Shown: positions 8,166 through 33,207 of the stretch, in pieces | Layout of the letters: every line of letters starts with the position of its first letter | Numbering within the stretch: position 1 is the stretch's first letter | Origin: an uncultured Bacteroidales bacterium | Lineage (GTDB): Bacteria; Bacteroidota; Bacteroidia; Bacteroidales; UBA932 | Direction: 5' to 3' | Assembly (NCBI GenBank): GCA_946538425.1 | Contig: CAMNGM010000006.1 | Coordinates: forward strand, 1-37,539 | DNA length: 37,539 bases | Position numbers and translations under genes: made by a program | The notes under the pieces: model-generated | The model's input: the letters and a program-made list of their open reading frames with translations, nothing else | What the model was told of the DNA's origin: nothing | Database searches by the model: none

Positions 8166-8185
8166 CATAACAAATGCTGAACGAT

Positions 8186-9581: not shown

Positions 9582-10919
9582 TTACCAATCCACCTTGATC
9601 TGGATCTTGGTGACCGTGATGTCGCCGCCGATGATGAGCGCCGTCTCGGTCCCGTTCATCGTAGCGGCCATCCCTTCGGAGACTTCGAATTCCAGGAAGT
9701 CCTCGCCGCCGGCCAGGAAAATGTTGTTCGGGCTTTCCCCGCCGTCGCGGATGTAAGGAGCGCCCCACCAGCCATCGCACAGGCAGAACTGCTGAGGTGC
9801 ATCGTGGTGGGCGAACGTGAGCCGGATCGTCTGGCCGGCTTCCGGGGTGATGGCCGAGAGGTCCAGCTCGGAGGCCGGGAGGTACCACCACCAGCCGGTC
9901 GTGTATTCACCGGTCCAGAGGGTCGGATACTCGCGGAAGAACTCGACTTTCTTGAGCAGGTAGTTTCCGGAGCAGACCACGAGGCCGCCGCCGGACTTGA
10001 TGGTGGCGACCATCCCCGCCGTCAGGGCGAATTCGACTTCGGTGACGCCGGCGGCCACATCCTGGGAGATCCAGTCGGCCCAGTTCGCATCATACAGGCA
10101 CACGTTGCAACCGTTCGGATTGTCGATCGTCAGACGGATCATCTGGCCTTCCCGGACCACGATCCCCTCGAGATTGAGAAGGTCGGTGGTGAGATACCCG
10201 TAGGTCGACCAGTCGTGGATATCGATTTCGCCTTCCCAGACGGCCACATATCCTTCGCCGGCGGCCTGCTCTCCGCCTCCCGAAATCTTGTCGGACAGGG
10301 TCACCTCCGGCAGCGTGTATTTCTTGCCGCTGCAGTCCTCGAGGACGATCCGGGCCGGTCCGGCCTGGATGCCCATCGGGGAATAGATGTACAGGGAGCC
10401 GGTCGCCTTGCGCTTGAATTCACCGGCAGGGACGACGATGTCCTTCCCGTCTTCTCCCGGGAAATACGCCTTGGTGATGAACTCGAGGTCCTTGCCGTAC
10501 ACCTCCAGGCATTCGTTGATCTGGATTTCCTTGTCCAGCGGAGCCACGGTGGAAGGCGTGGGATCGCCCAGCGTCAGGGCCATCACCGACTCGGCCGTTT
10601 CGCCGTCGGCCTCCACGATGACCGTTCCCCCTTCCGCAGAAACGCCCGCAGGGGTGGTGACGGAGATGTATCCGCTTCCCACCTTGACGATGTCTTTCGC
10701 GGTGACATTGCCCGGGAAGACGACGGCCGTCGCCTTCTCGAGACCGGTACCGGTGATGGTGACGACCTGCCCTTCGATCACTTTCGTCGGCAGGACGGAC
10801 TTCACGACGAGCACATCGTTGGCATCCGTGTCCATCGTCTCGCCGCACGAGGTCAGCGCCACGTTCGCCAGCAGTGCGAATCCCGAAGCCAGCAGAAGAT
10901 GTATGATGTTCTTTTTCAT
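9582..10919 (-). CDS. IPT/TIG-domain surface glycan-binding-like lipoprotein with duplicated C-terminal domain
   Basis: Lipobox ALTSC from MKKNIIHLL. IPT-like VLPTKVIEGQVVTITGTGLEKATAVVFPG. Last gene after SusC/SusD, the usual position of a surface glycan-binding protein. Confidence 0.75.
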   Translation of the reverse strand: MKKNIIHLLLASGFALLANVALTSCGETMDTDANDVLVVKSVLPTKVIEGQVVTITGTGLEKATAVVFPGNVTAKDIVKVGSGYISVTTPAGVSAEGGTVIVEADGETAESVMALTLGDPTPSTVAPLDKEIQINECLEVYGKDLEFITKAYFPGEDGKDIVVPAGEFKRKATGSLYIYSPMGIQAGPARIVLEDCSGKKYTLPEVTLSDKISGGGEQAAGEGYVAVWEGEIDIHDWSTYGYLTTDLLNLEGIVVREGQMIRLTIDNPNGCNVCLYDANWADWISQDVAAGVTEVEFALTAGMVATIKSGGGLVVCSGNYLLKKVEFFREYPTLWTGEYTTGWWWYLPASELDLSAITPEAGQTIRLTFAHHDAPQQFCLCDGWWGAPYIRDGGESPNNIFLAGGEDFLEFEVSEGMAATMNGTETALIIGGDITVTKIQIKVDW

Positions 10920-10953
10920 AAATCCTGATTGTTTGATCGTTCGTTGCATGAGT

Positions 10954-12648
10954 TTACCAATTCGGGTTCTGCTTCAGACTGCCGTTCTTCTGGATCTCGG
11001 ACTGAGGGATCGGGTACAGGTTGTACTTCTCGTCCCACTGGCGGGTCTGGGTCGAACGGTTGAGAATCACGTTGCCGGCCGCATCCAGCCGGAAATCGGC
11101 CACGGCGACGTTCTTGAAGAAATCGGCGCCCTTCTTCCAGCGGCGCACATCCCAGAAGCGGTGGCCTTCGAAGGCGAGCTCCACCATCCGCTCGCGCATA
11201 TAGCGCTCCTCGAAGCCGTCGTTCCCCTTGAACGAGGGCATATCGATGTCGGGACGGCTGCGGAGCACGTTGACGGCCTCGTTGGCCGACATCCCGAACT
11301 CGCCCTTCGCATCGGCGTCGCCGTAATAGTTGTACATCGCCTCCGCGTAGTTGAGGTAGACCTCGGCAAGCCGCATCACGATCCAGTTGTGACGGCTCGT
11401 GGTCTGGTTGTTGGCGGTGGTGACGCAGTTGCCGTCCACGAACTTCTTCAGGTAGTAGCCCGTGGGAGTCGCCCCGTATTTGGGCGCCCCGTTGAAGCCG
11501 CCCCGGTAGGTCTCGACGGCGATCTGCTGCGCCGCATTGGCCGGCCAGAGGTCGCCGTTCTTCACGACGGTGAGTTCGAAGCGGGGATCGAGCCCGTCAT
11601 ACGGTTTCTCGGCGGTCACGTCCACGTTGCCGGGGTGTTTCTCCCGGAAGGTCTTTCCGTCCGCCTTGTATTCGTAGGCGTCCACCAGGGCCTGCGTGGG
11701 GCAGTTGCCGGAGTTGCCGTTCTCCACGCCCACGGGGTAGTTGTTCTTCTCGAAACGGTTGTCGGCCTGGGTTCCGAGGACGAAGATGAATTCCGGATTG
11801 GTGAAGGTCTCGTGTCCCCAGAGGTTGGCATAGGCGCTCAGGCTGTAGCCCCAGCGCTGCGCATTGTCGATGAGGACCTTGCTCGCCGCGGCAGCCTCTT
11901 TCCAGAGCTCCTTGTCGTTGTCCGTATTGAACAGCGGGGAGGCCTGATACAGAAGGGCGCGGGCTTTCAGGGCCAGGGCGGCGCCGCGGGTGGCGCGGCC
12001 GATCTCCTGGCCGGGGATGTCCTTGAACGACACGGGCAGATACTCGGCCACGGCGTCGAGTTCGTTGACGATGAACTGGAAGACCTCCTTCGAGGGCGTG
12101 CGCTCCAGGGAGTTGGCCTGCTCGTTGGTGAGCGTCGTCGTCACCAGGGGCACGTCGCCGTACGTGCGGACCAGGTCGAAGTAGAACCAGGCACGCAGGA
12201 AGCGCAGCTCGTAGGGGAACAGCTCGAACTGCTGCACCATCGTCTGGTAGTTGGGATCGTACTCATAGTCCGACAGGTCGATCTTGTGGATGCGCTCCAG
12301 GTACATATGCACCTGGGCGATGGCGCGGTAAGACCGGTCCCACGTGTTGGAGAAAGGGTTCGAAGGGGTCCATCCCCCGTTGTAATACTTGTGGATCGGG
12401 GAAAGGGACAGCGCGAACTGGGCTTCGTCCGTGGCGCTGGCCAACATCGCGCCGTTGCCGTAGATGTCGTCCTTGAATTCGCTGGGAAGCTGCGCATAGA
12501 CATCGTAGACAAGCGCCTTCACGCCGTTGATGGGGCTGTTGTAGGTCCACTCTTCGTCACGGTTCGACGCTTCGTTGTAATCCAGGTTGGCGCAGCCGGC
12601 AAGGGCCGCCGCCGCCACGGTTGCGAGCGCATATACTATCTTTTTCAT
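10954..12648 (-). CDS. SusD/RagB family outer-membrane lipoprotein
   Basis: Lipobox AALAGC. SusD C-terminal hallmarks YMRERMVELAFEGHRFWDVRRWKKG and LYPIPQSEIQKNGSLKQNPNW. Confidence 0.95.
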   Translation of the reverse strand: MKKIVYALATVAAAALAGCANLDYNEASNRDEEWTYNSPINGVKALVYDVYAQLPSEFKDDIYGNGAMLASATDEAQFALSLSPIHKYYNGGWTPSNPFSNTWDRSYRAIAQVHMYLERIHKIDLSDYEYDPNYQTMVQQFELFPYELRFLRAWFYFDLVRTYGDVPLVTTTLTNEQANSLERTPSKEVFQFIVNELDAVAEYLPVSFKDIPGQEIGRATRGAALALKARALLYQASPLFNTDNDKELWKEAAAASKVLIDNAQRWGYSLSAYANLWGHETFTNPEFIFVLGTQADNRFEKNNYPVGVENGNSGNCPTQALVDAYEYKADGKTFREKHPGNVDVTAEKPYDGLDPRFELTVVKNGDLWPANAAQQIAVETYRGGFNGAPKYGATPTGYYLKKFVDGNCVTTANNQTTSRHNWIVMRLAEVYLNYAEAMYNYYGDADAKGEFGMSANEAVNVLRSRPDIDMPSFKGNDGFEERYMRERMVELAFEGHRFWDVRRWKKGADFFKNVAVADFRLDAAGNVILNRSTQTRQWDEKYNLYPIPQSEIQKNGSLKQNPNW

Positions 12649-12662
12649 AAACGTATCTCGGA

Positions 12663-15440
12663 TTAGAAGGTTAAGGTGACACCGATGTTGACGCCCTTGA
12701 ACAGGGGATATGCCGTCGAAAGCACTTCGGCATCCATCGCGGCGACATTGTCGAAGGAAAGGAGGTTCTCGCCCTGGACAAACACCTTGGCGGCACAGAC
12801 GGGCAGCTTCTCGAGCAGGGCGGCCGGAACCTTGTAGTAGAGCTCCATGTTGCGCAGCTTCAGGAAGCGGACGCTCTTGTACCAGATGTCGCTGGCCTGG
12901 GCGTTGTTGCTGTTGTCCTGCGTGGTCAGACGGGGATAGAGGGCGTTTTCGCCGGCCACATCCCAGCAGTGGTTGTTATAGTCCACGGAGAGGTTGCCGT
13001 TGTTGCCCAGGCCGCCCCAGATGGCCGCGGGAAGGTACTTCATATAGTTGCCGGTTCCCTGGAACCAGGCGTTCAGGCCGAAGCCCTTGTACTCGACGCC
13101 CAGGTTGAAGGCGTAGTTGAGCTCCGGGATGCCGGTGGCGCCGTCCAGGCTGGCGACGTCGAATTCGTTGACGACCTTGTCCCCGTTGAGGTCCCGGTAT
13201 TTCACGTCGCCGGGCCGGACCTGGGAGTACTCCTGCGGGAAGCTGGCGGCGATGTCGGCATCGTCCTTGAAGAATCCCGCCGAATGCAGGCCCCAGGCCT
13301 CGTTCACGCGATGGCCCACGGGATCGCTCAGCGGATACACCGGCGTGCCGATGTACCGGGTCACCACATTGCGGGCCCAGGACAGGTTGGCCCCCAGGTT
13401 CAGGTGGAGGTCGCGGGCGATTTCCTTGGCATACTTGGCGCCGACCTCGAAGCCGTAGCTGGCCACCTCGCCGACGTCGTTGTAGGAGGACTGGATACCG
13501 ACCACGGAGGAGTTCTCATGGCTGGCGGACAGCATGATGTGGCTGCGCAGCTGGTAGAAAGCATCCGCCGTGAAGTCCAGCGCACCGGCCAGGCGAAGGT
13601 CGGCGCCCAGGTTGAAGCTGGCGGCAGTCTCCTGCGAGAAATCGGTGGTGGGGAAAGCGTCCAGCGAGGCGCCCCAGGTGGAAGAATAATCGGTGCCGAT
13701 GATCACATACCCGTGCGTGGCGTCCCAGGTAGGCAGCCACATCCCGTAGGTGGGCATATAGTCGGTATGCTGGAGACCGGCCGAAGCGCGCAGCTTTCCG
13801 TAATTGAGGAAGCCGGCTTCGTCGTTGTCGAAGATCCAACCCAGCGAAAGGACCGGAGAGAAGGCCCATTTGGACGGGTAGGAACGGCTGGAGCCGTTGC
13901 CTGCGAGCACCAGGTCGGCCACGTAGCGGTTCTGCCTGTCATAGTGCAAAACGCCCATGATGTTCTTGCGGTAGAAGCTGTTCCCGCGTCCGTTGGCATT
14001 GATGCTGACATTCTCGTAGATGGCGGCCGCGTTGAAGTGGTCGTCGCCGAAGAAAGAGTGGCGGTAGTCGATCGCGGCGCTGGCCTTGACTTTCCACCAC
14101 TGATTGTCGATCCAGTTGCTGAAGGTCAGGTTCACCTCCTTGTTGCCGAAGGTATTCAGGGCGACGTTGTTCTTGTCGCCGACAGCGCCGGTATAACGCT
14201 CGTAGCCATACTCGTGCGCCTTGTGGGAATTCTCGGCATAGATGGCGGCATTGGAGTAGCCGGCGCTCGCCCAGAAGCTCAAGCCCGCCAGGAGGAAGTC
14301 CAGTTTTTGAGTCAGCTTGGCATCCACCCACAGCTGACGCTGGTGCGTTTTGTAGAATCCGGAGTCCTGGACCTTGGCCACGGGGTTGGCGTCGCCGAAG
14401 GCTTCGTTGCCGCCCCAGATCCCCGTCGAAGTCTTGAAGGGGAAAGCGTTGGCCGGCAGGCTGTAGACGGCGGCGACGGCCCCATCGGCCCCGATGTCGG
14501 ACGGCCGGAGGGTCTCCTGGAACATGCCGAAGAGATTCACCGCCATCACGGTGGACGGGGTGATGTCGATATCCAGGTTCGTGCGGATATTGGCCTTGGA
14601 CTGGCGCAGCTGGGCATTGTAGTCGGCCTGCCTGGCGTCCTTGAATGCGCCTCCCGCGTCGATGAAGTCGATCAGGGAGTAGTATCTCACCCGGTCCGTC
14701 CCGCCTTTCACCGACACATAGGCATGGTCCTCCTTGGAGATACCGGTGAACGTCTGGTCCTTCCAGTTGACATTCGGGTAGAAGAACGGGTCGGAGCCGT
14801 CCTTGAAGAGGTTCAGTTCCGCATCGGTGTACGCGACGGGGAGCCCGTCGCTGATGCGCGCGTAGTTGACGGCGCTGGCATACTCATAGGCGTCGGTCAT
14901 CTCGGCGAATTCGGGGGCGAACTGGAATTTGTGGCTGTAGTCCACTTTCACCTGCGCCTTGCCGATGGCGCCGCGCTTGGTCTTCACCAGGATGGCCCCG
15001 TTCACGCCGGCGTGTCCGAGGAGCGCGGTCGCGGCCGCGTCCTTGAGGACGGTGACACTTTCCACCTCCTCCACGCTCAGGCGGTCGATCGGACGCTCAT
15101 AGCCGTCCACGAGGATGAGGATGCCCTTGTCATTGAGCGTGTGGTAGCCGCGGATATTGAACGCGGCTCCCTTGTTCTCGTCACCGGAGAAACCGCCCTG
15201 CGACAGGGCCGTCAGGCCGGCCAGACGGCCGTACAGGGCCTGGGCAAGATTGTTTGCCGACGTCTGCTGCAGCTCTTCGCCCGTGATCGTGACCGCGGAG
15301 GCGGTGCTCAGGAAATCACTGGACTCCACACCGTAACCCAGGTCATAGGCCTTCGCATTCTTGTCGTTGAGTTTCACTTGCGCGTTTGCCGACAAAGTGA
15401 GAACGGCACCCGCAAGCAAGAACATTCTACGTATATTCAT
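12663..15440 (-). CDS. SusC/RagA family TonB-dependent transporter lacking the usual N-terminal CarboxypepD_reg-like domain
   Basis: Plug motifs NIRGYHTLNDKGILILVDGYERPIDRLSVEEVESVTVLKDAAATALLGHAGVNGAILVKTKRG. The plug begins almost directly after the signal peptide. Confidence 0.93.
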   Translation of the reverse strand: MNIRRMFLLAGAVLTLSANAQVKLNDKNAKAYDLGYGVESSDFLSTASAVTITGEELQQTSANNLAQALYGRLAGLTALSQGGFSGDENKGAAFNIRGYHTLNDKGILILVDGYERPIDRLSVEEVESVTVLKDAAATALLGHAGVNGAILVKTKRGAIGKAQVKVDYSHKFQFAPEFAEMTDAYEYASAVNYARISDGLPVAYTDAELNLFKDGSDPFFYPNVNWKDQTFTGISKEDHAYVSVKGGTDRVRYYSLIDFIDAGGAFKDARQADYNAQLRQSKANIRTNLDIDITPSTVMAVNLFGMFQETLRPSDIGADGAVAAVYSLPANAFPFKTSTGIWGGNEAFGDANPVAKVQDSGFYKTHQRQLWVDAKLTQKLDFLLAGLSFWASAGYSNAAIYAENSHKAHEYGYERYTGAVGDKNNVALNTFGNKEVNLTFSNWIDNQWWKVKASAAIDYRHSFFGDDHFNAAAIYENVSINANGRGNSFYRKNIMGVLHYDRQNRYVADLVLAGNGSSRSYPSKWAFSPVLSLGWIFDNDEAGFLNYGKLRASAGLQHTDYMPTYGMWLPTWDATHGYVIIGTDYSSTWGASLDAFPTTDFSQETAASFNLGADLRLAGALDFTADAFYQLRSHIMLSASHENSSVVGIQSSYNDVGEVASYGFEVGAKYAKEIARDLHLNLGANLSWARNVVTRYIGTPVYPLSDPVGHRVNEAWGLHSAGFFKDDADIAASFPQEYSQVRPGDVKYRDLNGDKVVNEFDVASLDGATGIPELNYAFNLGVEYKGFGLNAWFQGTGNYMKYLPAAIWGGLGNNGNLSVDYNNHCWDVAGENALYPRLTTQDNSNNAQASDIWYKSVRFLKLRNMELYYKVPAALLEKLPVCAAKVFVQGENLLSFDNVAAMDAEVLSTAYPLFKGVNIGVTLTF

Positions 15441-15474
15441 ATTCTACAAGTCTTATTGATGGTTAAAATCCGGA

Positions 15475-17436
15475 TTACCAACCGGGGTTCTGGTTCAGTC
15501 CATAGCCTTTGTTGATCTCGTTGCGGGAAATCGGAGCGAGGTACCACTTCTCGGACCACTTGCTCGCCTGGTCGGCGGTGTCCCACCATACGCGGATGTT
15601 GTTGGTGCAAGGGATCTTCTCATAGATGCAGCTGGGCCAGGGTTCGCCGGGCTGGAGGCTGGTGTTGCCGCCGTAGTCGGCGGGATCCATCCGCTTGCCG
15701 TCGGCGTCCTTGCGCCACATCCGCAGCTGGTGGACCTGCTTCTTGAAGATGTCGGATCTCTTGTAGCGGATGAGATCGTACCAGCGGACATCTTCATAGC
15801 CGAATTCGCAGGCTCTTTCCTGGAACAGCTGGTCGATGAAGTTGTCCTTGTCCGTGGTCAGGTTCAGTTCCGGATTCATCACTTCCACCTTGCCCAGGCC
15901 CACGCGGGCGCGGACCTTGTTCATCTCGTCGCAGGCTTTCTGCAGATTGCCGGTCTGGGCCAGCGCCTCGGCGTAGCAAAGGTGGATGTCGGCCATCCTC
16001 AGGTAGGCATAGTTGGTGGGATAGTAGGCGGCGTAGCCGTTGTCACGCAGATACTTGAACAGTTTCAGCCGGGTCGACCAGGGGTTGTCGGTGACCTGGG
16101 GATTGAAGTTCTGGTCGATGTTGCCGCCCTGCCAGAGCTCGGTGCTGGAAAGGCCGCCGTACTGCTCGACCAGGTTGTTGCGGTTCACCACCATCGTTTC
16201 GTACAGGCGGGGGTCACGGTTCACGAAGATGTCGACATTCTCGGGGTTGTCCGTATTGAAGACATAGTCGTAAGGGAAGTTGCGGCCGTCCGCCATTCCG
16301 AACATCTCCATATATTCCAGGGTGAACAGGGCCATCCCGAACTCGTCCATTCCTTCGACGTTCCAGTCGCCGTTCCAGGCGTTGGTGCCGGGGCCCGCGT
16401 GGACCTCGATCACTTTCTCACTGTTGCCACGGAACCAGTAGGCGGCCCGGAACGCGTTGCAATAGTCCTGCTCGGTCGTTCCGGTGGGCTGAACCAGGGC
16501 GAAGTAATTGCCGTTGGCGCTGTTGGCCTGGAAGAAATCCTCGCAGGCCTTCAGGGCCTTCTGCCACAACTCTGGCTGATAGCCGCCCGTCCAGACCTGA
16601 TGGATGTCCTGGTTCTCTTCGTTGCGGGTGAATTCCATATACGGCTTCTCGTTGTTGAACAGCGGGGAGGCCACGAAGTTCCACAGCTTCACCCGCAGGC
16701 CATAGGCCGAGCCCTTGGTCAGGCGTCCCGAATTGTTGGCCTGGTCCTTCACATAGAAAGGAAGCCCGGGCTCGTCGATGGCGGCCTGGATCAGGGAGTC
16801 GATGAACTCCGCCGTCTCCAGCACGCTCATCCGCCGGCCGTCCACGATGTCGGCCGCCTCAAAGGCGCGGTCCACTTTCGGGAGTCCGCCGAAGTTGCGG
16901 AAGGCATCCAGGTAGCGCGACGCCATGATGACATAGGCCTCGCCCCGGAGCTGGCTCTTTTCGTTGTCGTCCAGGTCGGGGACCTTGTCGATATTCTCGA
17001 TGAACTGCCAGGCCTCCCGGACCGTGCGCCAGATACCGACACGGTCGCTGTTGTTGATGAAGGGCATCCGGACATTGGTCCCGTTGTCCTGGTCGGACTC
17101 GGTCAGGCTGCCCTGGTAGTAAGCGGACACCATGTGCCATCCGCAGTAGGACTGGCAGATGTCAGTAAGCGCGTCGGCGTGGGAATACCACAAGGCGCCG
17201 GTATAGGTGAAGGGGTTGTGCATGGCACCGTAGATGTGCCAGAGGAAACGCTTGGCGTTCTCTCCTTTGACGAAGATGGTATCGATGGTCACATCCACGC
17301 CGGGCTGCTTGTCCAGGAAGCGGTTGCCGACGCTGATCTCCTCCACGCAGGAGTTCATCGACCCCATTCCCGCAAGGACGGCGACGGCAAAAACGATCGT
17401 GGAAGCCTTTATTCTCATTTTCTCGATCAGTTTCAT
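15475..17436 (-). CDS. SusD/RagB family outer-membrane lipoprotein (large, about 650 aa)
   Basis: Lipobox GSMNSC. SusD hallmarks LFQERACEFGYEDVRWYDLIRYKR and YLAPISRNEINKGYGLNQNPGW. Confidence 0.95.
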   Translation of the reverse strand: MKLIEKMRIKASTIVFAVAVLAGMGSMNSCVEEISVGNRFLDKQPGVDVTIDTIFVKGENAKRFLWHIYGAMHNPFTYTGALWYSHADALTDICQSYCGWHMVSAYYQGSLTESDQDNGTNVRMPFINNSDRVGIWRTVREAWQFIENIDKVPDLDDNEKSQLRGEAYVIMASRYLDAFRNFGGLPKVDRAFEAADIVDGRRMSVLETAEFIDSLIQAAIDEPGLPFYVKDQANNSGRLTKGSAYGLRVKLWNFVASPLFNNEKPYMEFTRNEENQDIHQVWTGGYQPELWQKALKACEDFFQANSANGNYFALVQPTGTTEQDYCNAFRAAYWFRGNSEKVIEVHAGPGTNAWNGDWNVEGMDEFGMALFTLEYMEMFGMADGRNFPYDYVFNTDNPENVDIFVNRDPRLYETMVVNRNNLVEQYGGLSSTELWQGGNIDQNFNPQVTDNPWSTRLKLFKYLRDNGYAAYYPTNYAYLRMADIHLCYAEALAQTGNLQKACDEMNKVRARVGLGKVEVMNPELNLTTDKDNFIDQLFQERACEFGYEDVRWYDLIRYKRSDIFKKQVHQLRMWRKDADGKRMDPADYGGNTSLQPGEPWPSCIYEKIPCTNNIRVWWDTADQASKWSEKWYLAPISRNEINKGYGLNQNPGW

Positions 17437-17447
17437 AATCCGGGATA

Positions 17448-20576: not shown

Positions 20577-20606
20577 TACATTCTGTGTATTAATTAATTG
20601 GATTTG

Positions 20607-21623: not shown

Positions 21624-21632
21624 CGGCGCCGC

Positions 21633-22436
21633 CTATTTGTCAAAAGGATCCCCCGCCGGATCGCGGCTGACGATCCACCGGAAGGCGTTCACGAACATCA
21701 GGTTCTGGGTGGCCTCGGAGAAGCACTCGTCCCCGTGGCCCATGTTCAGGTAGATCATCCGGTAGTTCCGGTTGGTCCACACGACCGGCCAGTCGCCGCC
21801 GTACACGATGTCCTTGATCCCGAAAGGATAGTTCTTCGGGGAGAGCGACAGCAGCACCTGGATGTTCTCCTTGGCCCGGAGGTCCTCCTCCCACTGGTAG
21901 AACTCGCTGGCCGGCAGCACGAACGAGCCGGGCAGGTTCTTCGTGACCGGGTGGCTGTGCAGGTCCACGTCGGCGAGCGCCTGCTGGGGCGGCCAGTTGT
22001 TGCACTTGAACACGCCGCAGCCGAGGAATTGGGAGAACCAGGGCCAATGGGTGTTCCGGTCATTGTAGCCGGAGGCGTGGAAGCCGATCCAGCCGCCGCC
22101 GTTGTCCATATACTTTTCAAACGCGGCCCGCTCCTGGGGGCCGTTCGGCGCGGCATCGAGCATAATGATGCAGGTGTACTCCTTGAGCTTGTCGTACGTG
22201 TAGCCGGCAAGGCTAGTGGTGACATCCAGGTAGAATCCCTCGCCGACGGTTAGTTTCCGGAAGAACTCGACCCCCTGGCGAGAGAACTGCACATGCGCCT
22301 CCTCGGCGTGCTCGGTATAATAGACAAGCGCCTTGAAACGCGGCGTGCGGGCGTAGTTGGCCGGCCGCTCCTGGGCCGCGGCGAGGGCCGGGACCAGCAG
22401 CAGGGCAAGCGTCAGAAGTTGGTAGATCCGTTTCAT
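21633..22436 (-). CDS. secreted ThuA-domain protein
   Basis: Signal peptide LALLLVPALAAAQ, then FKALVYYTEHAEEAH, YMDNGGGWIGFHASGYNDRNTHWPWFSQFLG and PVVWTNRNYRMIYLNMGHG, the typical ThuA pattern. Confidence 0.85.
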   Translation of the reverse strand: MKRIYQLLTLALLLVPALAAAQERPANYARTPRFKALVYYTEHAEEAHVQFSRQGVEFFRKLTVGEGFYLDVTTSLAGYTYDKLKEYTCIIMLDAAPNGPQERAAFEKYMDNGGGWIGFHASGYNDRNTHWPWFSQFLGCGVFKCNNWPPQQALADVDLHSHPVTKNLPGSFVLPASEFYQWEEDLRAKENIQVLLSLSPKNYPFGIKDIVYGGDWPVVWTNRNYRMIYLNMGHGDECFSEATQNLMFVNAFRWIVSRDPAGDPFDK

Positions 22437-22455
22437 ATCGATACAGTTTTATGTT

Positions 22456-24765: not shown

Positions 24766-24783
24766 CCGGATCTCGTTTCCATT

Positions 24784-25539
24784 TTATCTGTTACCACCGG
24801 CCGTCCAGTGAATCGCATTCAGCAGGAGCGTCCGGAAGTTTTCATCCGCCGCCAGCTCCGGACTGTGGCCGAACTGGAAATAGACATTGCGTCCCTTGCG
24901 GGCCGTATTGGTCCACACGACCGGATGGTCGCCCATCTTGACAGGCGTATCGAGCGTATAGGAGTTCTCGTCCACGGTGGCCAGCACGTGCACGTCCGGG
25001 CAGGCGCGCGGGTTCTTGTCGTAGGTGTAGAACTCATCGTCCCGGACCACGAACGTGGCAGGCACGCCGGCCATCACGGGATGGGCGGGGTCTTCCACGC
25101 AGACGGTCCCGTCCGTCAGCGGTTCGATATAATTCTCATAGCGGATGCCGCCGAGCAGGCCGGAGAACCAGTCCCACATCGGGAAGCCGTCGAACTCGCC
25201 CAGCAGCGAGGCGTGGTGGAAGCCCACCCAGCCGCCGCGGCCTTCGTCGACATACTTCTCGAAGGCCTCCACGGCCTCTTCCGGCCAGCCGTACGGGGCG
25301 TAGTCCAGCTGGACGATGACATCGAACCCGTCGAGGTATTCCTCGTTGAAATCCTTGGGATTGTGCGCTTCCGTCAGGACCAGGTTCTCCTTGGGAGCGA
25401 CGTCCCGGAGCCAGGGAAGGACGACTTCCGAGAAGGGTTTGTGGTGTCCGGCGTTCTCATAGAGGACCAGGACACGGGTCGGTTCCGGCTGGCAGGAAAG
25501 CAGCGCGGAGACCAGCAGGGGGAGAAGGATTCGTTTCAT
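24784..25539 (-). CDS. ThuA-domain lipoprotein (second copy)
   Basis: Lipobox SALLSC. RVLVLYENAGHHKPFSEVV, GRGGWVGFHHASLLGEFDGFPMWDWFSGLLGG and HPVVWTNTARKGRNVYFQFGHSPE. ATG overlaps the upstream stop as TGATG. Confidence 0.85.
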   Translation of the reverse strand: MKRILLPLLVSALLSCQPEPTRVLVLYENAGHHKPFSEVVLPWLRDVAPKENLVLTEAHNPKDFNEEYLDGFDVIVQLDYAPYGWPEEAVEAFEKYVDEGRGGWVGFHHASLLGEFDGFPMWDWFSGLLGGIRYENYIEPLTDGTVCVEDPAHPVMAGVPATFVVRDDEFYTYDKNPRACPDVHVLATVDENSYTLDTPVKMGDHPVVWTNTARKGRNVYFQFGHSPELAADENFRTLLLNAIHWTAGGNR

Positions 25540-26792
25540 CAGTCAGCAGTTTGTTTGATTCGGGAGCCGATCCGGGCGTACAGGAGCATCATGACCTCTC
25601 CGAACAGGACCAGCAGCCAGGACAGGCGCCAGCCGCCGAGCGTGTCGGCGAGGGCGCCCTGCAGGAGGGGAAGGATGGCGCCGCCCACGACGCCGATCAT
25701 GAAGACGCCGGACGCGGCGGACGTGTACTTGCCCAGCCGGGCGACGGAAAGGGTGAAAATCGCACCCCACATAATGGAGTGGAAGAGGCCCACGGCCGCC
25801 AGGATCCAGGGGTTGTCGACGAGGACTGCCAGGATCACGAGGACCGAGGCGGCGATCGTGGTGAAGGTCAGCTGCGTGCGCGGGCTGATCTTGCTCAGGG
25901 AGCTGCCCACGGCGCGGCCGACGAGCATCCCGCCCCAGTACAGGGTGGCGAGAAGGGCCGGCGAGGCGAGGCCCTTGTCGATGGCGTACATATTGATGTT
26001 CGCCCCGATGCAGACCTCCACGCCCACGTAGAAGAAGATCGCGACGACCCCGAGGGTGAGGTGGCTGAACGACCACACGCTCTTTTCCAGCTTCTCGGAG
26101 GTGTCGTTCCGCGTGCCGTCAATGTCCGGCAGGTTCAGCCGGCTCAGGAGCAGCATCACCACCAGCATCACGCCCAGCAGGGCCAGGAACGGCACCTGCA
26201 GCTGGCTGATGTGGATTTGGTCCATCGACAGGCCGCCGAACACCACGCCCGTCACGAAATACGGGGCCAGGGTGGTGCCCACCGAATTGGCCGTGCCGCC
26301 CACGGCGAGCCGCTGCACGGACTGGGTGCCCGGGACGTCACAGGCGGTCAGGTACGGATTGATCACCACCTGCAGGATGGTCGCCGAGGCGCCCACGATG
26401 AAGGAGCCCGCAAGGAAGATGACGAACCCCACGGGAATCACCGCCTGGCCGATGCGGAAGGCGCTGCCCTCGAAACGGACCGTGTACCAGGAAGAGGCGA
26501 AGAACAGGAACAGCCCGAGCAGCATCACGGCAATGCCCCGGAGCAACGTTCCCTTGTAGCCGTGGCGGTTCACCCAGCGGGAGCCCACGGGGCCGGCCAG
26601 CGGGTAGGCCAGGAACCACGAGAACGTGATGAGGGTGGCGAATGTGTTCTGGAAGCGTCCTGCGTTGGCCAGGAAGGCTTCCTTGAGGGGCGCCTGGAAC
26701 TGCGTGTTCGCCGTCGTGAGGAATCCCACCACGAAGAACAGGAACACGAGGGTCAGGAAGGGCCCCAGGTAGTTGGTCTTTTTCTCGGTCAT
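25539..26792 (-). CDS. MFS sugar transporter, FHS (FucP/NagP/GluP-like) family
   Basis: MTEKKTNYLGPFLTLVFLFFVVGFLTTANTQFQAPLKEAFL...; 12-TM pattern; FMIGVVGGAILPLLQGALADTLGGWRLSWLL. Lies in a PUL next to amino-sugar kinase/deaminase genes. Confidence 0.85.
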   Translation of the reverse strand: MTEKKTNYLGPFLTLVFLFFVVGFLTTANTQFQAPLKEAFLANAGRFQNTFATLITFSWFLAYPLAGPVGSRWVNRHGYKGTLLRGIAVMLLGLFLFFASSWYTVRFEGSAFRIGQAVIPVGFVIFLAGSFIVGASATILQVVINPYLTACDVPGTQSVQRLAVGGTANSVGTTLAPYFVTGVVFGGLSMDQIHISQLQVPFLALLGVMLVVMLLLSRLNLPDIDGTRNDTSEKLEKSVWSFSHLTLGVVAIFFYVGVEVCIGANINMYAIDKGLASPALLATLYWGGMLVGRAVGSSLSKISPRTQLTFTTIAASVLVILAVLVDNPWILAAVGLFHSIMWGAIFTLSVARLGKYTSAASGVFMIGVVGGAILPLLQGALADTLGGWRLSWLLVLFGEVMMLLYARIGSRIKQTAD

Positions 26793-26800
26793 AAGATGAA

Positions 26801-28369
26801 CTAGAAATTCGGGCCGCCGGTATCCCACCACAGGCGGGTGTTGCCGTTGTCGGCGCCGCCGAGCTTCGAGACGGCTTCCGTCATCTGGTTGTTATACTCG
26901 AAAGACTCCGGGAAAGTCATCCGCTTGACGTTGTCGTCATTCTTGAAGACGCCCTGGCTTTCGTTCACCATCACCGGGAACAGGACCGGGTAACCCGTGC
27001 GGCGCTGCTCGGACCAGGCCTCCATCCCGTCGGGGAAGGTGGCGATCCACTTCTGGATGATGATCTTCTGGAGCTTCTCCTCGTTGCTGGCGGATTCGAT
27101 CCACTTGGGAGAAACGGTGTTCGTCGCCGCGATGCTGTTCGCCGGGTTCTTGGGGTCGACATAGTCCGCAGGCACGTTGTCGCTCGAGAGGTAGGCCGTG
27201 GCGTCCCCCGCGCCCCACTGGGCAAAGGAGGTCTGGACGCCCTTCTCATACAGGGACTGCGCCGTGCCGCCCATATTGCTCCAGCCGCGGAGCGCGCCTT
27301 CGGCCCGCAGGAACCAGACTTCGGCGCTGGACATGATCAGGCCGGGGTCTCCGCCGCTGAAATTCGGGAAGGAGCAGCCGCCGTACGTATCCTTGACATC
27401 GATCTGGATGCCCATCCGGATCCCCTTGTAGTCCGCGCCGAGGCTCTTGTCGTTCGCGGGCTTGAAGTACTTCGGCAAGCGGGGATCGGCATAGCCGCCC
27501 AGGATGCTCTCCATCACCGCGTTCATACAGCAGTCGCCCCAGTCGGTCCCCAGGGTGGAAAGCGGGTTGACCCAGCCCTTTCCGACCACGGAAACCGTAC
27601 CTTCTTCCAGGACGCCGTCCGCGACCGCGGCCTCGGCCTTCTGGCGGGCCAGGGCGGGGCTGACTTTCACGATCCGCATCGCGGCGCGCAGCTGGACGGA
27701 ATTCGCGAACTGGATCCATTTCTGGAAGTCACCGCCCAGCAGCAGGTCGAAGGGCTGGAAAGGCTTGGCGTCCGGATACTCGGCCAGGAACGCCTTCAGG
27801 GCGGCCTTCGCCGCGTCCAGTTCCTCGAACACGTGGTTGTAGGCTTCCTCCTGGGTATCGAAGGAAGCGCCCGTGGCGCTGGTTCCGTACTTGCTGTACA
27901 CGACGGGGCCGTAGGAATCGCTCACGCGGATCATCGCCACTGCGCGCAGGATCTGCGCGACGGCATAGAAGTGCGGATACTCCTCGGCCCGGCTTTCGAT
28001 GCTGGTGAAGATCGGGCTCATCACGTCCCGGTAGGTCAGGTCCCACATCCCGCAGACCCAAGAACGGATCAGGAACAGCGTGGCGGGATTGATGTTGTTC
28101 TGGAACGGGGTGGGGGCCATCATATAGCCGCACCAGGTGTCGGCCGTCAGGTTCTGGGCCGTCTGCATTTCCCACGCCCACAGGCAGGTGTTGTTGTAGA
28201 TGCCCTGCTGGATGGTGGGGAAATACGCGCCCACGTCGTTGAAGTCGGCGGAGAGCAGCTCGTTCGTCACACCGTACGGGTTGGTATTGTATTCCTCCCA
28301 CTTCTTGCAGCCCAGCAGCGCGGTAGCGAGCACGGCCAGGAGGATGATCGAATATACCTTGTTTTTCAT
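26801..28369 (-). CDS. SusD-like lipoprotein (SusD_like_2 type)
   Basis: Lipobox TALLGC. EEYNTNPYGVTNELLSADFNDVGAYFPTIQQGIYNN and LQKIIIQKWIATFPDGMEAWSEQRRTGYPVLFPV, characteristic of SusD_like_2. Confidence 0.92.
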   Translation of the reverse strand: MKNKVYSIILLAVLATALLGCKKWEEYNTNPYGVTNELLSADFNDVGAYFPTIQQGIYNNTCLWAWEMQTAQNLTADTWCGYMMAPTPFQNNINPATLFLIRSWVCGMWDLTYRDVMSPIFTSIESRAEEYPHFYAVAQILRAVAMIRVSDSYGPVVYSKYGTSATGASFDTQEEAYNHVFEELDAAKAALKAFLAEYPDAKPFQPFDLLLGGDFQKWIQFANSVQLRAAMRIVKVSPALARQKAEAAVADGVLEEGTVSVVGKGWVNPLSTLGTDWGDCCMNAVMESILGGYADPRLPKYFKPANDKSLGADYKGIRMGIQIDVKDTYGGCSFPNFSGGDPGLIMSSAEVWFLRAEGALRGWSNMGGTAQSLYEKGVQTSFAQWGAGDATAYLSSDNVPADYVDPKNPANSIAATNTVSPKWIESASNEEKLQKIIIQKWIATFPDGMEAWSEQRRTGYPVLFPVMVNESQGVFKNDDNVKRMTFPESFEYNNQMTEAVSKLGGADNGNTRLWWDTGGPNF

Positions 28370-28381
28370 GTCAATCATATG

Positions 28382-31300
28382 TTAGAAGCCCAACTTGAGG
28401 TTGAAACCGTAGGAACGGGTGCCGGGGACACCGTAGAAGTCGACGCCCTGCGCGCCGGAGGCGGCGGACATGCTGTAGTCGGTATCATAAGGCGCATTGC
28501 AGTAGAACACGAACAGGTTGCGCGCGACGAAGGACAGGGACGCGCTCTTGAGCACCTTCGAGCCGGCGAGCACATTCCTGGGAAGGGCATAGCCGAAGGA
28601 CAGCTCGCGGAGCCGGATGTTGGTCGCGTCGTAGACATAGTACCCGGAGATGCCGTCACGGCCGCCGACGCGGCGGTAGAAGCCGCTGACGTCGTCGATC
28701 TTCTGACCTTCGAGCTCCACATAGCCCCGGTCTCTGGCCGCGGCGGTCGCCTCGGACACGCCCTGGATGTCGTTCATCGCCTGGGTCAGGGAAAGCGCGC
28801 TACCGCCGAACCGGCAGTCGACCAGGAAGCCGAGCGAGAAGCTCTTGTACTCGAGGGTGTTGTTCCAGCCCAGCAGGAAGTCGGGCGTAGCATTGCCGAT
28901 GTACTGGAAGCCGTCCGCCTTAGTGGGCAGGCCGGTCTCGTCGAGGGCAATCTTGCCCGAAGCGTCCCGGTTGAAGACATAACCGTAGAAATCGCCGTAG
29001 GAACCGCCTTCCGTGAGCCACATCCGGTAGGCGTCCGAACCGGAATCCGTGAGGACGAACTGGGTGATGTCGTCGTGCAGCTTGATGATGGTGTTCTTGT
29101 TCCGGGACATGTTGAACTGGGACTTCCAGATGAAATCCCGGGTCATCACGGGCGTGACGCTCACCATCGCCTCGATACCGCTGTTCTGGATGTTGCCGGC
29201 ATTGACATAGTAGTAGTTGTAGCCGCTGCCTTCCGGCGCCTTCAGCGTGAAGAGCTGGTTGGTGGTGTTGGTCTTGTACCAGGTGAAGTCCACGGACAGG
29301 CGGTTCTTGAAGAACTGCCACTCGGTACCGAACTCGAGGGAGGAGGAGATTTCCGGCTTGAGCTCGCCGAAAGCGGCCGTACCCACCGGGGTGACGGTGC
29401 CGTTGTAGTTGACGGAACCGGTCGGGTTGGTGATGCGCGTCGGCAGGTCGTTGCCCACCTGGGCAAAGGAGCCGCGGATCTTGCCGTAGTTGATCCAGGA
29501 CGGAAGAGAGAAGAGCTCGCTCAGCAGGAGCGTCGCGCCCACGGAAGGATAGAAGAAGCCCTTCTTGAAGCTGGTGGTATAGGCGAGCGCGGAGGACCAG
29601 TCGTTACGGGCGGTGACGTCCACGAAGAGGAAATCGCGGAAGCCGAAGTTCGCGGTGGCGAACAGGGCCGTGTTCTGCGTCCGGTAGGCGCTCTGGCTGA
29701 ACTGCTGGGTGATCGTGTTGGGAATGGTGAAGATATTCGCGTAGGCGAGACCGCAGTTGTAGGAGCTGGAATACAGCGAGTGGCTGCGGGAGTCGGAGAG
29801 GCTGCCGCCGAGGGTGGCGGTCACGCTGAAGTCGCCGAACTGCTTGTTGAAGGTCGCGAGGAGGTCGCTGTACAGCTTCGCGTCCGTGGACTGGCCGTAT
29901 TCATACAGACCGTTCCGGTTACCGGCGAGGGAGACGTCCGTGGTCGCGTACATCTTGACCTCTTCGCGGTCGGCGTTGGCGTCCAGGCTCGCGCGGGCCT
30001 GCAGGCTGAACCAGTCCGTGACGTCCCACTTGGCCGACAGGCTGGCGATGATGCGGTTGCGCACGTTCTGCCGGCTGGTCCGGTTCACCACCCACCAGGG
30101 GTTCTGCTCGGCCGGGCCGATGGACTTGTACCAGCTCTGGGCCATCAGGTTGCGGTCCGCGTCGAAGGTCTCGAATTCCTTCGCATAGGAACTCACGTCG
30201 TGGCCGACCGGGATGTTGTACAGACCGGGAATCGGGCTGGTGTAGGCGCCGCCCGGGCGGGGACGGTTCTGCACGTCCTGGTAGATGTACTGCATGCTGG
30301 CGTCCAGGGTGACGGCGTCCCACATCCGGGCCGTATTCCGGAACGTCACGTTGTGCCGGCCGAAGGCGCTGTTGGGATACAGGCCCCGGGAGGTCGTGTT
30401 GCCGTAGGAGACGTACGTCTGGTTCTTGTCGTTGCCGGTGGACACGGAAACGGTGTTCATCGCATTGACGCCCGTCTGGAAGAAATCCTTGATGAAGGCG
30501 ATCTTGTCCCAGGTGGGAGTCACCTTGTCACCCCAGCTGTAATAGCCCGTGCTCTCGCCGTAGCGGTTCTGAAGCTCAGGCAGGTACGCGACCTGGTCGA
30601 AGGTCGTGGTGGAGGTGAAATCCACCCGCGTTCCGCCGGCCTGGCCCCGCTTCGTGGTGATCATAATGACACCGTTGGCGGCCTCGGTACCGTACAGGGC
30701 GGAAGCGGAGGCGCCTTTCAGGACATTGATGGAGGCGATATCGTCCGGATTGAGATTGGACATCCCGTCACCGCCGTCGTGGCTGCCGGACAGCAGGCTG
30801 TTCAGCTGGGAGCCCTGGGAGTTCCGGATCGGAACGCCGTCCACGACATAGAGCGGCTGGTTGTTGCCATTCGCGGAACGGAAGCCGCGGATGGACACCT
30901 TGGTGGCGCCGCCCAGACCGGAGGCATTGGACGTGACGGTGACGCCGGCCGCCTTGCCGGCCAGCGCGTTCATCATATTGACGTCGCGGGCGCGGGTGAT
31001 GTCCTCGCTGGACACGGCCTGCGTCGAATAGGTGAGGCTCTTGGCCTGGCGCTGGATACCCAAGGCCGAGACCACGACTTCGTCCAGGATGGAGGCGGAA
31101 AGAGTCAGGGCCACATCGACGCGGGCGCGGCCGTTTACCGCCACTTCCGCCTCGTTGTAACCGAGCAGGGAGAACACCAGCGTCCCGTCGGAAGGGACGC
31201 GGAGGGAATAGGATCCGTTTTCGGAGGTGACCGTCGCCACGGACGTGTTCCCCTTCAGGGAAACGAACACGCCGACCAGCGGAGACCCGTCGTCCCCGTC

Positions 31301-31408
31301 CGTAACCTGTCCGCTCACCGTCCCAGGGTTCTGGGCGCCTAACCAGGCAGCCGGCGCAAAGAGGAAAGCCGTGCCGAGTGTCAGGATGATTTTTTTCAAG
31401 AATTCCAT
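28382..31408 (-). CDS. SusC/RagA family TonB-dependent transporter
   Basis: CarboxypepD_reg-like NTD (GTVSGQVTDGDDGSPLVGVFVSLKG), LDEVVVSALGIQRQAKSLTYSTQ, and plug VSIRGFRSANGNNQPLYVVDGVPI...LKGASASALYGTEAANGVIMITTKRG. Confidence 0.96.
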   Translation of the reverse strand: MEFLKKIILTLGTAFLFAPAAWLGAQNPGTVSGQVTDGDDGSPLVGVFVSLKGNTSVATVTSENGSYSLRVPSDGTLVFSLLGYNEAEVAVNGRARVDVALTLSASILDEVVVSALGIQRQAKSLTYSTQAVSSEDITRARDVNMMNALAGKAAGVTVTSNASGLGGATKVSIRGFRSANGNNQPLYVVDGVPIRNSQGSQLNSLLSGSHDGGDGMSNLNPDDIASINVLKGASASALYGTEAANGVIMITTKRGQAGGTRVDFTSTTTFDQVAYLPELQNRYGESTGYYSWGDKVTPTWDKIAFIKDFFQTGVNAMNTVSVSTGNDKNQTYVSYGNTTSRGLYPNSAFGRHNVTFRNTARMWDAVTLDASMQYIYQDVQNRPRPGGAYTSPIPGLYNIPVGHDVSSYAKEFETFDADRNLMAQSWYKSIGPAEQNPWWVVNRTSRQNVRNRIIASLSAKWDVTDWFSLQARASLDANADREEVKMYATTDVSLAGNRNGLYEYGQSTDAKLYSDLLATFNKQFGDFSVTATLGGSLSDSRSHSLYSSSYNCGLAYANIFTIPNTITQQFSQSAYRTQNTALFATANFGFRDFLFVDVTARNDWSSALAYTTSFKKGFFYPSVGATLLLSELFSLPSWINYGKIRGSFAQVGNDLPTRITNPTGSVNYNGTVTPVGTAAFGELKPEISSSLEFGTEWQFFKNRLSVDFTWYKTNTTNQLFTLKAPEGSGYNYYYVNAGNIQNSGIEAMVSVTPVMTRDFIWKSQFNMSRNKNTIIKLHDDITQFVLTDSGSDAYRMWLTEGGSYGDFYGYVFNRDASGKIALDETGLPTKADGFQYIGNATPDFLLGWNNTLEYKSFSLGFLVDCRFGGSALSLTQAMNDIQGVSEATAAARDRGYVELEGQKIDDVSGFYRRVGGRDGISGYYVYDATNIRLRELSFGYALPRNVLAGSKVLKSASLSFVARNLFVFYCNAPYDTDYSMSAASGAQGVDFYGVPGTRSYGFNLKLGF

Positions 31409-31431
31409 ATGTGAATGTGTTGTTGAGGTTG

Positions 31432-32169
31432 TCAATGACTGGATTCCAGCTTGGATGCGGCATCTTCGTCAAGCAAAACGGTACAGTCGGGGTGCAACTG
31501 GAGCACCGAGGCCGGCACGTCCTCCGTGACGGGGCCTTCGACCATTTCCCGCACGATGGCGGCCTTGGACGGGCCTTTCGCCGCCAGGACGATCTTCCGG
31601 GCGTGCATAATGTCCGCCAGCCCGAGCGTCACCCCTCCGAGGGGCTTGTCGGCGGGCGTTCCGGTCTCCCGGCGGATCCTTTCTTCCAGCTCGGGATACA
31701 TCACCGAAAGCCGGGCGCCGGCTCCGAAAGGGGAACCCGGCTGGTTGAACCCCAGATGCCCGTTCTCCCCGAGGCCCAGGAACAGGAAATCGACCCCGCC
31801 CCGCCGCTCGAGCTCCGCCACGAAGGCCCGGCAGTCCCGGTCGAAATCGTCCGATTCCACCGGCAGCATCAGGAACCGGTCCTCCGGGATGCCCAGCGGG
31901 CCGACGATCTCGTTCATCAACATCGTGTAGCAGGCGCCCGCGTACTCGCGCGGGACGCCCGCGACTTCGTCCTGGCCGAAGAAAGTCGCTTGGGAGCAGT
32001 CCAGGCCGGTCTCCCGGACCAGCTGGACGAAAGCGCGGTGGATGTCTCCCGTCGTCCGGCCCGTGGAAAGGCCGACGACGGCATCCGGGCGGCGCCGGAT
32101 GGCGTCCGCCATCATCCCGGCCGCCTGCCTGTCCAGCTGCTCAGGCGTGCGTAAAACAAGGATCTGCAT
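31432..32169 (-). CDS. glucosamine/galactosamine-6-phosphate deaminase family protein (NagB/AgaI-like)
   Basis: VVGLSTGRTTGDIHRAFVQ, FFGQDEVAG, LGLGENGHLGFNQPG, GVTLGLADIMHARKIVLAAKGPSKA and PASVLQLHPDCTVLLDEDAASKL. Confidence 0.85.
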   Translation of the reverse strand: MQILVLRTPEQLDRQAAGMMADAIRRRPDAVVGLSTGRTTGDIHRAFVQLVRETGLDCSQATFFGQDEVAGVPREYAGACYTMLMNEIVGPLGIPEDRFLMLPVESDDFDRDCRAFVAELERRGGVDFLFLGLGENGHLGFNQPGSPFGAGARLSVMYPELEERIRRETGTPADKPLGGVTLGLADIMHARKIVLAAKGPSKAAIVREMVEGPVTEDVPASVLQLHPDCTVLLDEDAASKLESSH

Positions 32170-32172
32170 AGG

Positions 32173-33114
32173 CTATTTGTTCATCGCGACGGCCGCTGCG
32201 CCCAGCAGGCCGACAAATTGCGGATTGAGCTTGGTGAGGACCACCCCGTGGGTGACGAAACGCATCGTATTCTGGTTCAGGCAAGCCTGGATCCGCTCGA
32301 AGACGTATTCGTTCGCGACGATGCTGCCGCCCAGCACGACCGTATCCGGGTCGGTCACCCGGACCATATTCATAATGAGGTTGGCGATGCCTTCCGCCGC
32401 GTTGGTCACCAGGACCGAGCACAGGGGGTCGCCGGCCTGGCTGAGGGTCACCACCTCCTCGACGGAAACCCGCTTCTCCCCTTCCGGGGGGAAGGTCAGC
32501 CGGGTCTCGTACCGGTCCTTGAGGAGCCGGGCGCAGCGGTCGATGCCGCTGCCGGAGGCGATGGTCTCCACGCAGTCCGTCCGGCCGCAGGCGCAGGGGA
32601 CGCCCACATTGACACCCACCCGCATATGCCCGGCCTCGCCGGCGTTGAAATGGCTGCCGCGGATCTGCCGGCCGCCCACCACCGTTCCCACGGCGATGCC
32701 CGTCCCGACATTGATGTAGACGAAATCCTTGGAGAACTGGCCCACGCCCCAGACCCGTTCGGCCCGGGTCGCGCTCTTGACGTCGTTGTCGATCCGGCAG
32801 GGAATGCCGTACAGGGCCGTCAGCTCGTCCGCCAGGGCGATGCTCTCCGTCCGGTGCGGGTCGATCTGGAGCCAGATGCCCCGGTTGGGGTCGACGCGGC
32901 CGATGAGGCCCACGCCCATCGCGACGGGCTTCTCCCCCACCCAGCCCACGTTGGCGACATAGTCGTCCATCGAACGGCGGATGATGTCGAAAGCGGCCTT
33001 CTGGTTGAAGAAGCCGGAGTCATACCGTTTATAGCGGAGGATGTTGCCATAGGCGTCCACTTCTCCGATGAGAAGCTTCGTTCCGCCGAGGTCCAAGCCG
33101 AGATAGGTTTCCAT
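32173..33114 (-). CDS. ROK family sugar kinase
   Basis: YLGLDLGGTKLLIGEVD, IDNDVKSATRAE, NVGTGIAVGTVVGG, GEAGHM and the CACGRTDCVE zinc motif. Confidence 0.92.
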   Translation of the reverse strand: METYLGLDLGGTKLLIGEVDAYGNILRYKRYDSGFFNQKAAFDIIRRSMDDYVANVGWVGEKPVAMGVGLIGRVDPNRGIWLQIDPHRTESIALADELTALYGIPCRIDNDVKSATRAERVWGVGQFSKDFVYINVGTGIAVGTVVGGRQIRGSHFNAGEAGHMRVGVNVGVPCACGRTDCVETIASGSGIDRCARLLKDRYETRLTFPPEGEKRVSVEEVVTLSQAGDPLCSVLVTNAAEGIANLIMNMVRVTDPDTVVLGGSIVANEYVFERIQACLNQNTMRFVTHGVVLTKLNPQFVGLLGAAAVAMNK

Positions 33115-33147: not shown

Positions 33148-33155
33148 CAAACATA
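33148..33155 (-). promoter_or_regulatory. putative PUL operon -7 element TATGTTTG
   Basis: TATGTTTGCA on the minus strand in the 93-bp gap between the HTCS and ROK genes, about 34 nt upstream of the ROK ATG. Confidence 0.5.
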
Positions 33156-33207
33156 CGCACGGGTGCGTGGGAACGGGGTCGAAGAATCGACAAAAAAGGT
33201 TGAAAAA

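Follow-up and report, generated by a model that had tools for sequence, protein, structure and literature searches.

Polysaccharide utilisation loci (PULs) with more than one transporter are common, and the retention of several SusCD pairs within one locus calls for an explanation. Tandem susCD repeats (trsusCD) account for ~3% of loci; their conserved synteny was taken as an argument against simple fusion, and only heterodimers were suggested as a reason for keeping several pairs (Lapebie 2019, PMC6499787). For the levan SusC, alteration of the Ton box caused a growth defect like that of SusD loss, and removal of the N-terminal extension abolished growth (Gray 2021, PMC7782687). Furthermore, a chitin utilisation locus (ChiUL) with more than one SusC/D pair was described for F. 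johnsoniae (Larsbrink 2016, PMC5127042). In this study, a locus encoding three SusCD pairs was analyzed in a DNA stretch of 37,539 nucleotides (hereafter the window) representing a single contig (CAMNGM010000006.1) from the 56%-complete draft genome of an uncultured, gut-type Bacteroidales bacterium (UBA932; assembly GCA_946538425.1).

The locus is probably a PUL for chitin or related chains of beta-1,4-linked N-acetylglucosamine (GlcNAc), controlled by one hybrid two-component system (HTCS) regulator. A single promoter located just before the gene of a ROK sugar kinase most likely drives transcription of its 14-gene core. Judged by sequence, amino-sugar uptake loci of this type are of a known kind, and the distal transporter of the locus belongs to a widespread SusC branch that lacks the Ton box and the domain preceding it. 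The core of the locus consists of 14 consecutive minus-strand open reading frames (ORFs), extending over about 23.5 kb from the ROK gene (33114) to the gene of an IPT/TIG lipoprotein (9582). Based on Pfam and NCBIfam assignments, their order is ROK, NagB, SusC1, SusD1, MFS (major facilitator superfamily transporter), ThuA1, GH9, ThuA2, GH18a, SusC2, SusD2, SusC3, SusD3 and IPT/TIG; the last five genes are referred to as the tandem unit. The functional locus exceeds this run and additionally comprises the HTCS regulator gene on the same strand (36846-33208) and the convergent plus-strand gene of the lipoprotein GH18b (8174-9511). The regulator features Reg_prop, Y_Y_Y, HisKA, HATPase, receiver and AraC helix-turn-helix domains (Pfam), and its gene directly precedes ROK in Bacteroides relatives, too. 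Three susCD pairs accompanied by a GH9, two GH18 genes and an HTCS regulator identify the locus as a PUL.

In favour of an amino-sugar substrate, two chitinase-type GH18 genes, NagB, a ROK kinase and a NagP-like MFS transporter share the locus, and the tandem unit recurs together with the nag module and GH18 genes in Bacteroides and Prevotellaceae. GH18a (20607-21623, minus strand, as are all features of the run) is a lipoprotein carrying the motif DGIDIDWE. GH18b, assigned by Pfam, was recognized as a GH18a homologue by eye, and a GH18 gene adjoins the SusC2-SusD3 genes in several relatives. Both proteins are chitinase-type according to motif and structure matches, and their predicted activity corresponds to that of the GH18 component of chitin loci. 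The ROK protein (32173-33114; PF00480) is a probable kinase of GlcNAc or glucosamine as deduced from its sequence, whereas the NagB-type protein (31432-32169; PF01182) matched glucosamine-6-phosphate deaminase models best within NCBIfam, with scores below the cut-off. The MFS sugar transporter (25539-26792) was assigned to the GluP/NagP type (Pfam/NCBIfam).

A further link to chitin is provided by the first transporter pair. SusC1 (28382-31408) possesses the N-terminal extension and the Ton box DEVVVSALG (Pfam/NCBIfam). Along its entire length, SusD1 (26801-28378) matched two chitin-binding SusD proteins, namely AqSusD (8J0P; E 3e-125) and CusDI from F. johnsoniae (5J90; E 1e-118), and both tryptophan residues of the proposed chitin platform of CusDI, W65 and W280, align with tryptophan in SusD1, so that a CusDI-type SusD as known from the chitin utilisation locus is present. 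By sequence, SusC1/SusD1 can be regarded as a chitin CusD-I type pair distinct in kind from the tandem pairs. The first-pass annotation of the window had assigned SusD1 to SusD_like_2 and the other two SusD proteins to the RagB/SusD type. The latter assignment holds for SusD2 and SusD3 (both PF07980); however, SusD1 was assigned best to PF12741 SusD-like (545 bits), ahead of PF12771 SusD-like_2 (245 bits). In family relatives, the SusC1-SusD1 genes directly adjoin a GH9 gene as well as a gene resembling heparan-glucosaminide acetyltransferase. One of these relatives (L035:5425-9205) also harbours a metallophosphoesterase gene beside the acetyltransferase-like gene and SusC1-SusD1-GH9.

The GH18 family also includes endo-beta-N-acetylglucosaminidases. 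Accordingly, an alternative target was considered, either complex N-glycans or a different host glycan containing GlcNAc, with the GH18 proteins acting as such endo-enzymes, and GH18a and GH18b indeed showed weak matches to an EndoS TIM-barrel model. These matches are below the cut-off, however, and both proteins matched the general GH18 model and chitinase structures far better. Moreover, SusD1 is related to chitin binders, and mannosidase, sialidase and galactosidase genes are all missing from the locus. An N-glycan PUL is hence unsupported and appears improbable.

The GH9 protein (22456-24765) contains a CelD_N immunoglobulin-like domain (Pfam). By sequence searches alone, GH9 glucosaminidases and cellulases were not distinguished from one another. 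The top seven Foldseek matches of its structural model, ahead of all cellulases, were exo-glucosaminidase-type GH9 structures, namely those of V. cholerae VC0615 (6GDT), Photobacterium PBPRA0520 (5DGQ/5DGR) and a V. parahaemolyticus relative (3H7L). The model thus suggests that the window GH9 is probably an exo-glucosaminidase, and the Vibrionaceae enzymes presumably reside in an amino-sugar context as the window GH9 does. GH9 is flanked by genes encoding the ThuA-domain lipoprotein ThuA1 (24784-25539; Pfam) and the secreted ThuA-domain protein ThuA2 (21633-22436; Pfam, with PDB matches 4jqs/4pxy). One ORF beside the nag genes of Xylanibacter/Prevotella ruminicola encodes a fusion of GH9 with a ThuA domain, that of ThuA1 (L130:3731-6616 and L131:5318-8281), and since both are a single protein in X. 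ruminicola, ThuA and GH9 appear to be functionally linked. The locus also ties GH9 and ThuA to amino-sugar use and offers a testable pathway for the poorly understood secreted ThuA family.

Some observations weigh against a chitin PUL of the described type. The locus, and likewise the whole window, is devoid of a GH20 gene that could provide the chitobiase, and six GH20 matches are located on other contigs of the genome. A multimodular secreted ChiA with two GH18 domains was not found, the GH18 proteins of the window being single-domain only, and genes for nagA and PIG-L were not detected in the assembled part of the 56%-complete draft genome. Moreover, the GH9 model is of moderate quality (mean predicted local distance difference test score 71.7) and only 17-19% identical to its Foldseek matches. 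In favour of the chitin PUL, Prevotella ruminicola KHT3 carries a PIG-L-type de-N-acetylase and a GH20 (L053:13079-15819) together with two GH18 genes just after the tandem unit. Use of chitin or chitooligosaccharides represents the simplest model, and a route leading partly through glucosamine, involving de-N-acetylation, GH9, the kinase and NagB, is possible.

Concerning transcription, gaps across the 14-gene run range from -1 to 34 nt given the likely start codons (ATG at 31408 for SusC1, at 26792 for MFS and at 10919 for IPT, whose ORF spans 9582-10949), and a TGATG overlap is present at 25539 between MFS and ThuA1. ORF calling and spacing thereby confirmed the minus-strand run, its gaps of at most 34 nt and the overlap as described in the first-pass annotation. 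Its observation on terminators, none having been seen inside the run but strong ones just past the 3' end, was confirmed for the intergenic gaps. The sole strong intrinsic terminator, on the minus strand, features a 16-bp stem at 9566-9532, where the IPT and GH18b genes converge. Terminator-like sites in total number 10 and 9 in the two scanned halves, compared to 10.3 and 10.5 in shuffles; those on the minus strand inside the run all reside in coding sequence, with none in any intergenic gap.

The -7 box of Bacteroidota promoters reads TAnnTTTG. A match, TATGTTTG, was detected on the minus strand at 33148-33155, 41 bp upstream of the ROK start. In total, the GC-rich window contains five matches, namely at 33155 (before ROK), 8052 (before uvrA), 2116 (by dxs), 8158 (before GH18b) and 90 (near the contig end). 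As each of them is close to a gene start or to the contig end, the motif is considered informative in this genome. The 93-nt gap before ROK holds one match, and only 1.9% of shuffles of this gap contain one. Within the 23.5-kb run no match was found; as the shuffle mean is only 1.03, this absence alone represents weak evidence. An inverted repeat, ACGCACccGTGCGT, extends over window positions 33148-33168; the start of the -7 box before ROK overlaps its end, and the repeat is a possible operator.

One transcript spanning all 14 genes is likely as judged from spacing and motifs, because a box precedes the first gene, an internal box and an intergenic terminator were not found and the gaps are tiny. 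The shared promoter claimed in the first-pass annotation is plausible on these grounds. Certain points argue in the opposite direction. A run without any TAnnTTTG is expected in 39% of shuffles, so weak internal promoters may exist; a clear -33 TTG element is missing before the -7 box upstream of ROK; and a single mRNA of 23.5 kb would be long. Alternatively, internal promoters ahead of SusC1 (31409-31431) and/or SusC2 (20577-20606) could divide the run into two or three transcription units. Such an arrangement is compatible with a weak sigma70-like site at 31415-31386 and with the situation in relatives, where 180-488 bp precede SusC2 and often bear TAnnTTTG (7 of 11 upstream regions compared to 1.7 in shuffles). 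In the window, however, the junctions ahead of SusC2 and SusC1 comprise only 30 and 23 nt, respectively, and both are free of the motif. A sigma70 promoter scan remained at or below shuffle level, its consensus being unsuited to describe Bacteroidota promoters. Subdivision of the run is therefore considered rather unlikely, though less so than the N-glycan alternative, and a single transcript remains the preferred interpretation.

The first-pass annotation had also raised the fusion of two PULs (33114-20607 and 20576-9582) and suggested comparing relatives, naming halves that are always unlinked as a refutation of its reading. Such a consistent separation was not observed: among about 12 close relatives, at least six have the halves linked, and others have them unlinked. 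In Bacteroides, HTCS-ROK-NagB-MFS-GH18a form one block, and the tandem unit adjoins this block (L045), is 30 kb apart (B. oleiciplenus) or is located on another contig (B. fluxus). In Xylanibacter/Prevotella ruminicola, the order (ThuA2)-ThuA1/GH9-regulator-ROK-NagB-MFS is followed, across a usually promoter-bearing gap of 180-222 bp, by SusC2-D2-C3-D3-IPT on the same strand, and the collinear set of Xylanibacter ruminicola ends with SusC2-D2-C3-D3-IPT-GH18. A genome of the same genus (G338) carries the tandem unit beside GH18b and a divergent HTCS gene, with ROK, MFS, ThuA1, GH9 and GH18a on another contig.

Two unrelated PULs, each serving its own glycan, that abut or became fused would be consistent with the separate placement of tandem unit and nag module in B. 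oleiciplenus, B. fluxus and G338, as well as with other clades of the tandem unit that occur without nag genes. On the other hand, an orthologue of ROK (66-74% identity) was found in all nine tested relatives bearing a close (73-90%) tandem unit, the nag module adjoins the unit in at least six loci, and GH18 genes accompany both parts. Because they are linked or co-occur in relatives, the left-hand genes and the tandem unit are regarded as one gene set with variable operon layout, and the probability of two unrelated PULs is considered low. The junction 20576/20607 is indeed the 5' edge of the tandem unit, and SusC2 opens its own block in most close relatives. Fusion itself was not supported, given the conserved gene order within the unit and the collinearity of the left-hand genes with it in Xylanibacter ruminicola; for the same linkage, a clean fusion point at 20577-20606 was rejected. 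Most close relatives possess 180-488 bp upstream of SusC2, compared to 30 nt in the window. This short upstream region is devoid of the box; therefore the window resembles a compacted version of the gene set to which SusC1/SusD1 were added rather than a chance fusion. Comparison with relatives accordingly depicts separate operons collapsing into a single run.

Within the tandem unit, SusC2 (17448-20576), SusD2 (15475-17436), SusC3 (12663-15440) and SusD3 (10954-12648; PF07980 and SusD-like_3) are directly adjacent on one strand with gaps of 11, 34 and 14 nt, which corresponds to the adjacency of trsusCD. Using SusD3 as query against 84,980 species genomes, 53 loci were retrieved, and the order SusC2, SusD2, SusC3, SusD3 is kept in nearly all full-length loci among them. 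Identities amount to 73-90% in Bacteroides, Xylanibacter and Prevotella and to ~35% (SusD2 ~24%) in Chitinophagaceae and Sphingobacteriaceae. In a quick tree containing several long branches, proximal and distal SusC proteins formed separate neighbouring clades with SH-aLRT (Shimodaira-Hasegawa-like approximate likelihood ratio test) support of 98 (SusC2) and 99 (SusC3). Hence, SusC clades follow the repeat position and the order is conserved, as expected for trsusCD. The lipoprotein terminating the unit is a predicted surface glycan-binding protein whose structural model retrieved SGBP-B (surface glycan-binding protein B) proteins of glucan PULs as top Foldseek matches. Three further tandem susCD units are encoded in the source draft genome on contigs C9, C35 and C38 (loci L044, L043 and L042); on C9, a GH18 gene precedes the unit at 40 nt.

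Compared to Bacteroides and Prevotellaceae, SusC2, SusD2 and SusD3 of the window are 81-86% and SusC3 is 73-79% identical, whereas UvrA reaches 56-59% and the partners GH9, GH18a and NagB 46-59%. These sequence differences may reflect either slow evolution of the tandem unit or its exchange between lineages. A recent transfer of the unit from Bacteroides was considered given ~85% identity across families versus 56-59% for UvrA. This conclusion was not drawn, since the degree of conservation of the unit is about the same everywhere, its G+C content at third codon positions (0.83-0.88) matches the window and the copy in the window clusters with that of the same genus.

The distal SusC proteins differ from the proximal ones at their N-terminus. 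The N-terminal extension (PF13715) was found in all 41 proximal but in none of 45 distal SusC proteins of tandem units, and the plug domain was found in all of the latter. Likewise, a canonical Ton box reading (E/D/N)xVVxx(Y/F)G is present in 41/41 proximal sequences (8 being slight variants) versus 0/45 distal ones, as counted in the final alignment; most distal SusC proteins read (V/Y)DLG(Y/F)G or lack a motif. In the window, SusC2 carries both elements, whereas SusC3, like distal SusC in general a short protein, has neither the Ton box before the plug nor PF13715. Ton-box binding tolerates sequence variation, and for this reason distal SusC proteins may still use a non-canonical Ton box. 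By sequence, the distal SusC may otherwise draw energy via its neighbour or represent a non-transporting partner. Tentatively, and with less than even probability, the distal SusC (with its SusD) in this clade of tandem units could have lost autonomous TonB coupling and function as obligate partner to the proximal SusCD, e.g., within a SusC2D2-SusC3D3 heterocomplex containing an energised and a non-energised barrel. Such a dependence would account for the preservation of the C-D-C-D order throughout Bacteroidota. A literature search retrieved no report of a Ton-box-less distal SusC, which is not proof of novelty. The N-terminal loss is accordingly a testable and possibly new feature.

Outside the locus, the window encodes housekeeping and transport functions (UvrA, dxs, two MFS genes and a uridine-kinase-like gene). 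The two MFS genes are arranged in tandem (2226-5156) and are unrelated to the PUL. An Rfam search of the window yielded zero matches.

Based on these results, the following pathway is proposed. Surface GH18 lipoproteins would cut the chain, and the pieces would be retained by SusD1, the putative holders SusD2 and SusD3 and the IPT lipoprotein, to be imported by SusC1 and SusC2 using TonB energy. It is possible that the three pairs serve several size classes of one glycan. Amino sugars would be freed in the periplasm by GH9, which its ThuA partners may assist, together with GH20 enzymes encoded elsewhere. After transfer to the cytoplasm via the MFS carrier, these sugars would be turned into fructose-6-phosphate by the ROK kinase and NagB. 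The locus may have been assembled from nag/GH9/ThuA/GH18 genes, the tandem unit SusC2-D2-C3-D3-IPT and the CusD-I type pair SusC1/D1, the promoter-bearing gap ahead of SusC2 having been cut to 30 nt.

In comparison to the F. johnsoniae ChiUL (PMC5127042), the window shares a GH18 lipoprotein, NagB, an MFS transporter, two-component control, more than one SusC/D pair and a CusDI relative, SusD1, with both tryptophan residues. Unlike ChiUL, it lacks the multimodular ChiA and GH20, and an HTCS replaces the separate CusS/CusR; it adds ROK, GH9, two ThuA proteins, the IPT lipoprotein and the tandem susCD unit. The Vibrionaceae GH9 exo-beta-D-glucosaminidases VC0615 (6GDT) and PBPRA0520 (5DGQ/5DGR) are the closest solved folds to the window GH9, which differs by an identity of 17-19% over the structural alignment and by ~200 extra N-terminal residues. 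As in the levan system Bt1762-63 (PMC7782687), SusC1 and SusC2 carry both required elements, whereas SusC3 is devoid of both. Finally, adjacent same-strand C-D-C-D genes, SusC clades defined by position and a fixed order are shared with the trsusCD of Lapebie 2019 (PMC6499787). The searched text of that study contains neither an N-terminal extension nor TonB; the double loss in the distal SusC is added by the present analysis, and its consistency provides a sharp test of the heterodimer idea.

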